Of a stretch of DNA of 64,000 nucleotides, positions 1 to 10,520 are shown piece after piece. The notes under the pieces were generated by a model. The model was not told the origin of the DNA and did not search any database. It saw only the letters and a program-made list of their open reading frames with translations. The position numbers and the translations under genes are program-made. Numbering within the stretch: the first letter of the stretch is position 1; each line of letters begins with the position of its first letter. This DNA comes from Methylococcales bacterium (GTDB taxonomy: Bacteria > Pseudomonadota > Gammaproteobacteria > Methylococcales > Methylomonadaceae), in contig JAPLRP010000039.1 in the NCBI GenBank assembly GCA_026399095.1, positions 1 through 64,000 of the forward strand, read 5' to 3'.

Positions 1-38
1 CAAGGGGAGTCGATGCGAAAAAAAATGAATTCCTTGAC

Positions 39-350
39 TCAAGTTGAACACTTAGAGTAAAAATTCACTTCCATCGATGCGTTAGCTTTTAGGTGTTCAA
101 GTCCATCAGAATTGGTGTTCAAATTAATCAGAATACGCACCAGCGACCCAGAAGCAAGGACAGCCTGACAACATAAAGCCAATGGAGCTTTAACGGTTTC
201 CTGTAGCGCCTGTGCTGCCTTGCCTAATATGTCGCCTAGTGCTTCGACCGGATAAGTTTCCGCTGCTGGCAATGGAGCGCGTAGTGGTTCGGGTTCATAA
301 GTAGCAGGATTGCCATTAAAAAACTGATCTCTTTTATCATCCAAACTCAT
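39..350 (-). pseudogene. Truncated DUF3987-type protein (N-terminal fragment)
   Basis: The first ~69 residues read like the N-terminus of DUF3987 proteins, which are common on phages and integrative elements; the stretch with PEPLRAPLPAAE, EALGDILGKAAQAL and KAPLALCCQAVLA is the recognisable part. Homology then stops abruptly at about base 140 and the frame runs through unrelated sequence to a stop at 39. A full-length family member has several hundred residues, so the helicase/primase-like body is missing. The break coincides with two tandem 22-bp repeats at 92-135. The start codon overlaps the stop of the upstream zinc-finger gene (ATGA), so the two were co-translated. The fragment is probably non-functional. 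The family name rests on remembered family sequence, not on a search. Confidence 0.6.
92..135. repeat. Two tandem 22-bp repeats, possible transposon end
   Basis: Two adjacent 22-bp units (92-113 and 114-135) share the pattern GGTGTTCAA-N4-ATCAGAAT and agree at 18 of 22 positions. They lie exactly where the DUF3987-like reading frame loses its homology, and are followed by CGCA. Arrays of similar-length transposase-binding sites are known at the ends of Tn7-like and TniA-type transposons. The interpretation as a mobile-element terminus extending beyond the left edge is inference. Confidence 0.45.
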
Positions 351-1151: not shown

Positions 1152-1296
1152 TTGTATTCCTTGTTAAGGTATACGCCCTTGTGGGATTACTAGGGCATGG
1201 CGTGCAGTTTGTGCGATTTAGAAAGTAAAAAAAATGTCCTTTTGTTCCGCATCATGATGGTTTGCAATAAATCATGATATTTTGCAATAGTTCATT

Positions 1297-2108: not shown

Positions 2109-3398
2109 TTATATCGCTTTTCTAAAGGTAGTTTGTATTGATGCTTTTATGGGCGTTACATTCCAATCCTTGCCAGCCTCGCAGGTGGTTAAAAAATCAT
2201 CCCATAACTGTAGAGCTTCTTTTCTATCCTCAAGGTAATCACCGCGATCATAAACGCCATCCATATCCGGTATTTTATGATTCAAACACCGCTCGCTAAC
2301 AAACCGATCTACACCAATATATTTTGCGCATAAGTGCGTTTTCATAGTGGCTCTAAAATCATGGATAGTGAAGTTTTCAACGTCCATCAAAGGGAATAGC
2401 CAGTCTTTAATCGGCTTGTTTAAGTAGCTTTCGCAGGCATGGCCGTTTTTTGTTTTTCTTCTGCTCATACTAGGTATTAAGTACAAACTATCATCAATAT
2501 GATTCTGCATAAGCTCTACAACAATGTTATAGGCAGATGATGATAGTGGTATATCTATCTTCAACTCTTTCTTAGTTTGTAATTTTGAGATGTGCCAGAC
2601 TCGATTTATTAAATCAAAGTCATCACGCTTGGCTTTTAATAATTCGGTTTTTCTATTGCCCAATAACAATAATAACTTTGTGCATAGGTAATGACGTCGT
2701 GTGAATTTCTCACAATCCCTCATAGCTTTAAACAATAGGGTTAATTCTGCGTGTGTTAAATACCGATCTCGACTTGTTTCTTTTCCGCCAGCATCCGAAG
2801 TATCAAAGGCAAAGGCTGGATTGTTTTTTATTATTTGTCGCTTGATTGCATAATTAAAAATTTGCTTCGTCATCGCCAAAACGTCACTTGCTGTCGTTGG
2901 TGCGGTCTTTTTAATAATGTTTAGCATGGTAGAGATGTGCATAGGCTCGACCGCATCAATGCGTAGTTTGCCAATAGCCGGTATCAGATACTTATTAAGG
3001 CTTAAGCGTTTTGCATGTGCTGACTTTAATTTACCGGCAACATTACACTCAAACCATTCATCAACCAACTGGTAAACAGTTTGCGCGGATTTATCAGCAA
3101 TAGCTTTTTTTATCGTTTCCTGCTTAAGCTCGCGTTTTTGTGTTGCTGGATTATTGCCTTTTTTTATTTCGACTCTATGCGACATTGCGGATAATCTCGC
3201 AGAGCTTAACGAGGTATCAGGATAAGCACCTAAAAATACTTTTTGCTCTATTTTCGCGATCTTGAAGCGTAAAAACCAAACAGGGTTTTTATCAGTGGCA
3301 CGGTATCTTAAATATAAATTATCGCCATCTGCTTTGGCATCAAAACGAATGTTATTTTTAATCCAGTAGCGAATTTCTTTGTCTTGTATCTTAGCCAT
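2109..3398 (-). CDS. P4-type tyrosine recombinase (integrase)
   Basis: A 429-residue site-specific recombinase. The N-terminal ~100 residues resemble the DUF4102 arm-binding domain of P4-like integrases (LYLRYRATDKNPVWFLRFK, VFLGAYPDTSLSSAR), followed by a SAM-like core-binding domain at ~105-205. The catalytic domain shows the expected residues: Arg in GNRKTEL, the HxxR box in IHDFRAT, His in CLNHKI and the nucleophile Tyr in VYDRGDY. It should integrate and excise the element whose other genes lie downstream at 39-2010. It is the last element gene before chromosomal housekeeping genes, so the attachment site probably lies in 3399-3655. No tRNA is visible there. Confidence 0.88.
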   Translation of the reverse strand: MAKIQDKEIRYWIKNNIRFDAKADGDNLYLRYRATDKNPVWFLRFKIAKIEQKVFLGAYPDTSLSSARLSAMSHRVEIKKGNNPATQKRELKQETIKKAIADKSAQTVYQLVDEWFECNVAGKLKSAHAKRLSLNKYLIPAIGKLRIDAVEPMHISTMLNIIKKTAPTTASDVLAMTKQIFNYAIKRQIIKNNPAFAFDTSDAGGKETSRDRYLTHAELTLLFKAMRDCEKFTRRHYLCTKLLLLLGNRKTELLKAKRDDFDLINRVWHISKLQTKKELKIDIPLSSSAYNIVVELMQNHIDDSLYLIPSMSRRKTKNGHACESYLNKPIKDWLFPLMDVENFTIHDFRATMKTHLCAKYIGVDRFVSERCLNHKIPDMDGVYDRGDYLEDRKEALQLWDDFLTTCEAGKDWNVTPIKASIQTTFRKAI

Positions 3399-10174: not shown

Positions 10175-10222
10175 TTTCTGCTCTCAGTTGTTATCAAAAA
10201 ATACTGAGGCAAGGATAATAGA

Positions 10223-10266
10223 AAATAATTACAGTTATGTGACAGAAATATTACAGATATGTGACA
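10223..10266 (-). promoter_or_regulatory. Tandem Pho boxes (PhoB binding sites)
   Basis: Four contiguous 11-bp units occur on the minus strand (10266 down to 10223): TGTCACATATC, TGTAATATTTC, TGTCACATAAC, TGTAATTATTT. The 7-bp TGTMAYA-type core repeated every 11 bp is the known PhoB binding pattern, so this is two consecutive Pho boxes. They end about 50 bases upstream of the porin start, with a -10-like TATTAT (10220-10215) just downstream, as expected where PhoB replaces a -35 element. Confidence 0.75.
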
Positions 10267-10520
10267 ACAGGCAATTTAGTTGCTTCGTTACAAAAACAAA
10301 AAAACAGACCCTTTCTTACTTATTGATTTTAAAGAAAAAATAATTTCTTAATCCATTCTCTTTTTAACAACATTTATTCCAAATAACTGGCGTTTAAGCT
10401 ATTGATACTCATAAACACGGTACCCTTAAACCAAACAATAACTTTGGGCAATAAAAATAACGGCTAAAAACTAATTAGTTAAAACCATGATTGGCTTCTA
10501 TTTGATACTAAACTATTATA

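Follow-up and report, generated by a model that had tools for sequence, protein, structure and literature searches.

The window analysed here is a 64-kb stretch of DNA that begins with the first base of its contig (C89). It opens with the last codons of an istB gene, followed by a terminal region containing two tandem repeats and by part of a DUF3987 gene (Table 1). The neighbours of this gene encode a CHC2 zinc-finger protein, an AlpA-type regulator and a tyrosine recombinase, a neighbourhood that is probably typical of integrative elements. A tRNA search of the window returned no genes and hence yielded no tRNA attachment site for the integrase.

Table 1 Features at the left edge of the window (window coordinates)
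Feature	Position	Strand	Remarks
istB 3' end, IS21-family	1..60	+	last 19 codons (QGESMRKKMNSLTQVEHLE) and stop; rest of element unassembled
Right terminal region of insertion sequence (IS)	61..139	+	common to four other contig ends, flanks diverge afterwards
Inner terminal repeat, R2-like	92..113	+	
Outer terminal repeat, R1-like	114..135	+	
5-bp target site duplication, CCAGC	140..144	.	second copy flanks left end on C12
Interrupted DUF3987 gene, N-terminal part	140..350	-	remainder starts contig C12
Tyrosine recombinase of DUF3987-carrying integrative element	2109..3398	-	PF00589, PF22022, PF13356

The two 22-bp repeat units, GGTGTTCAAGTCCATCAGAATT (92-113) and GGTGTTCAAATTAATCAGAATA (114-135), abut one another and are identical at 18 of 22 positions, as the sequence-only reading had described. 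The second unit is followed directly by CGCA, the last base of which is position 139; read inward, this outer end is 5'-TGCG (...CGCA-3' on the forward strand). Because the IS interrupts the DUF3987 gene, the frame of this gene breaks between positions 139 and 140, at the outer border of the repeats; the earlier placement of the repeats at the break thus held. Adjacent 22-bp pairs this alike occur only once more in the 64-kb window (start 10222-10224) and not at all in five mononucleotide shuffles of it, which do not preserve dinucleotides. This second pair (ACAGtTATGTGACA / ACAGaTATGTGACA, window 10222-10270, at least 18/22 identity) is possibly a regulator site. Separately, adjacent 20-bp units with 85% identity (ATCATGAT..TTTGCAATA) lie at window 1251-1290, between the AlpA-type gene and a 237-residue ORF.

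Four further contigs of this genome have an end that matches positions 1-139 of the window, with 100% identity on C45, C54 and C34 and 95% on C91. All five right ends have a common sequence as far as ...GAATACGCA and diverge past that point, a pattern indicative of a multi-copy mobile element with an unassembled body. The absence of the repeated IS body from the assembly likewise explains why contig C89 starts at window base 1. Using the element from a related locus (L025) as the query, we recovered five right ends and also five left ends from the genome, the latter on C35, C66, C6 and C12 and, as a shorter piece, on C10. When the genome was searched for the element body with the same query (L025:629-3310), nothing was found beyond the ends and some short, weak matches. 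The sole strong IstB_IS21 match of the genome, on C11, belongs to another element, as it shares only 27% identity with the window element's IstB.

The identity of the element follows from the gene next to the repeats and from relatives with the same ends. The translation of window 1-60 is the C terminus of an IstB protein (P0002; 95% identity in a protein search) that matches IstB_IS21 and NF038214. An exact scan of genome contigs for the terminal 26 bases of the end identified seven loci, four labelled as Methylobacter and three as a Methylococcaceae bacterium (two of the three from one MAG). The element in L025 (629-3310) spans 2,682 bp and has open frames for both istA (514 aa) and istB (251 aa); the element in L026 spans 2,748 bp, with istB open and istA split across two frames, and L028 has an end of the window's type, an ORF for istB and a broken istA distributed over two ORFs. 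L023 and L027 contain the right end plus the adjoining 1.7 kb and 0.8 kb, respectively, and L029 contains just the final 141 bases of the element, up to the limit of the examined stretch. One further locus (L024:99-157) has the outer part only of the right end, with unrelated sequence inside and no istB match, and may be a truncated or non-autonomous end.

IstA and IstB from L025 pass the NCBIfam IS21 models NF033546 and NF038214, with IstA (P0001) scoring 299.8 bits against NF033546 at a cut-off of 160. Their Pfam matches are IstB_IS21, rve and Mu-transpos_C_2, and IstA also matches chains of the IS5376 transposase in the PDB (8b4h, 8q4d). The DDE transposase gene istA is thus present in relatives with the same ends, the body of the window's own copy being unassembled, and the AAA+ helper gene istB lies downstream of it, in full in L025 and L026 and as the C terminus in the window. 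Judging from these relatives, the copy at the window would likewise have istA and nearly all of istB within an intact body.

The sequence-only reading had also proposed that the repeats form the multi-site end of a transposon, the body of which lies left of the window, and that this transposon is nested in an integrative element. Both proposals are borne out, the former by the five right ends with their differing flanks and by the istA-istB genes between such ends in relatives. For the latter, the matching left end and 5-bp target duplication that the reading had suggested looking for were found on contig C12, where CCAGC borders the left end. Joining the C12 flank and the window with a single CCAGC yields a continuous open frame of 503 residues, which covers positions 1-363 of the 364 in the DUF3987 domain (PF13148, E=2.2e-88). 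In the same domain search, the C12 part by itself matches positions 17-363; the 71 residues encoded by the window gave no match by themselves. With the first 150 residues as the query, matches were found in 9 of 61 genomes, the own genome included. Of the eight other matching genomes, three were examined (G034, 91% identity; G031, 82%; G017, 62%), and in all three the homologue crosses the insertion site in one frame, which provides the intact DUF3987 gene anticipated by the reading. At the DNA level, G034 and G031 align over the empty site without the insertion.

Flanking 5-mers pair for three of the five left ends in the genome: C12/C89 (CCAGC), C66/C91 (AATGC) and C10/C34 (ACTGG). When five left and five right 5-mers were drawn randomly from the window, three or more matches arose by chance at a frequency of 5e-6 (200,000 trials). 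The left ends on C35 (CTTTA) and C6 (CCATC) and the right ends on C45 (AATAC) and C54 (ACTTA) have no 5-bp partner; the assembly may lack their partners, or recombination between copies may have taken place. Both ends were located in three relatives: L026 (754-3501) has CGTGC on either side of the element, L089 has no target duplication, and the contig of L025 stops at the element end, making a flank comparison impossible. Our end-pairing script found no true left/right end pair in the relatives' stretches L090, L091, L094 and L095.

According to two papers on IS21 (PMC10122671, PMC11208146), each end of these elements has two or more repeats (L1/L2 and R1/R2; two in the IS21 prototype, 'at least two' generally), IstA requires two complete repeats for integration, the elements terminate in CA, and insertions are bordered by 5-bp repeats. 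The element described here shares with the family (prototype IS21; structural model IS5376) the istA-istB order, inverted ends with a terminal CA, at least two direct repeats per end and the 5-bp target duplication. By the established IS21 mechanism, IstA would synapse both ends and, with IstB, insert the element at a 5-bp stagger. The two 22-bp units would then act as the right-end transposase-binding repeats R1 and R2, with binding of IstA to them predicted by analogy. Where the prototype, as described in those papers, has two units per end, the left ends here have four direct units at intervals of ~23 bp, together with one or more inverted units, and the right end has two units 22 bp apart. 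It is conceivable, but rather unlikely, that in this IS21 branch the left array, with its four direct repeats and one inverted repeat just upstream of istA, doubles as a transposase end and an IstA-controlled operator limiting transposition. The asymmetry of the left end is a minor matter, relevant to IS21 specialists.

Transposons of the Tn7/Tn5053 type have multiple transposase sites per end and generate 5-bp duplications. On the strength of the multi-site end, the sequence-only reading had named the Tn7-like or TniA (Tn5053-type) families as a likely source of the repeats. A terminal CA is also found in those families, a likeness described in part in PMC10122671. However, the coding sequence that touches the end is that of IstB rather than tnsB or tniA with tnsC/tniB, and relatives with matching ends have istA-istB; we therefore rejected this assignment, which we consider highly improbable.

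Without any insertion, the repeats might also be native to the DUF3987 gene or have arisen in it by local tandem duplication, as their position at the gene edge could suggest. This explanation has a negligible probability and was likewise rejected, since the 139-bp sequence occurs in four other contexts and homologues lack the insert. Finally, the structure could be composite, either an IS21 body with extra passenger genes or a C12-C89 pair produced by recombination between copies. The unassembled body and the 4 of 10 ends without a partner are compatible with such an origin, but the matching CCAGC and the continuous frame favour one simple insertion at the window site, leaving only a slim chance for a composite.

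The 22-bp tandem repeats are the right end of an insertion sequence of the IS21 family. Almost certainly, an element with istA and istB (~2.7 kb in relatives) inserted into the DUF3987 gene of the integrase-bearing element with duplication of CCAGC, and the 22-bp units are its R1/R2 repeats. The event is a routine one, a new copy of a well-known kind: an IS inside an integrative element of a Methylobacter-like bacterium. The insertion accounts for both the contig start and the broken DUF3987 gene, besides linking contig C12 with C89.
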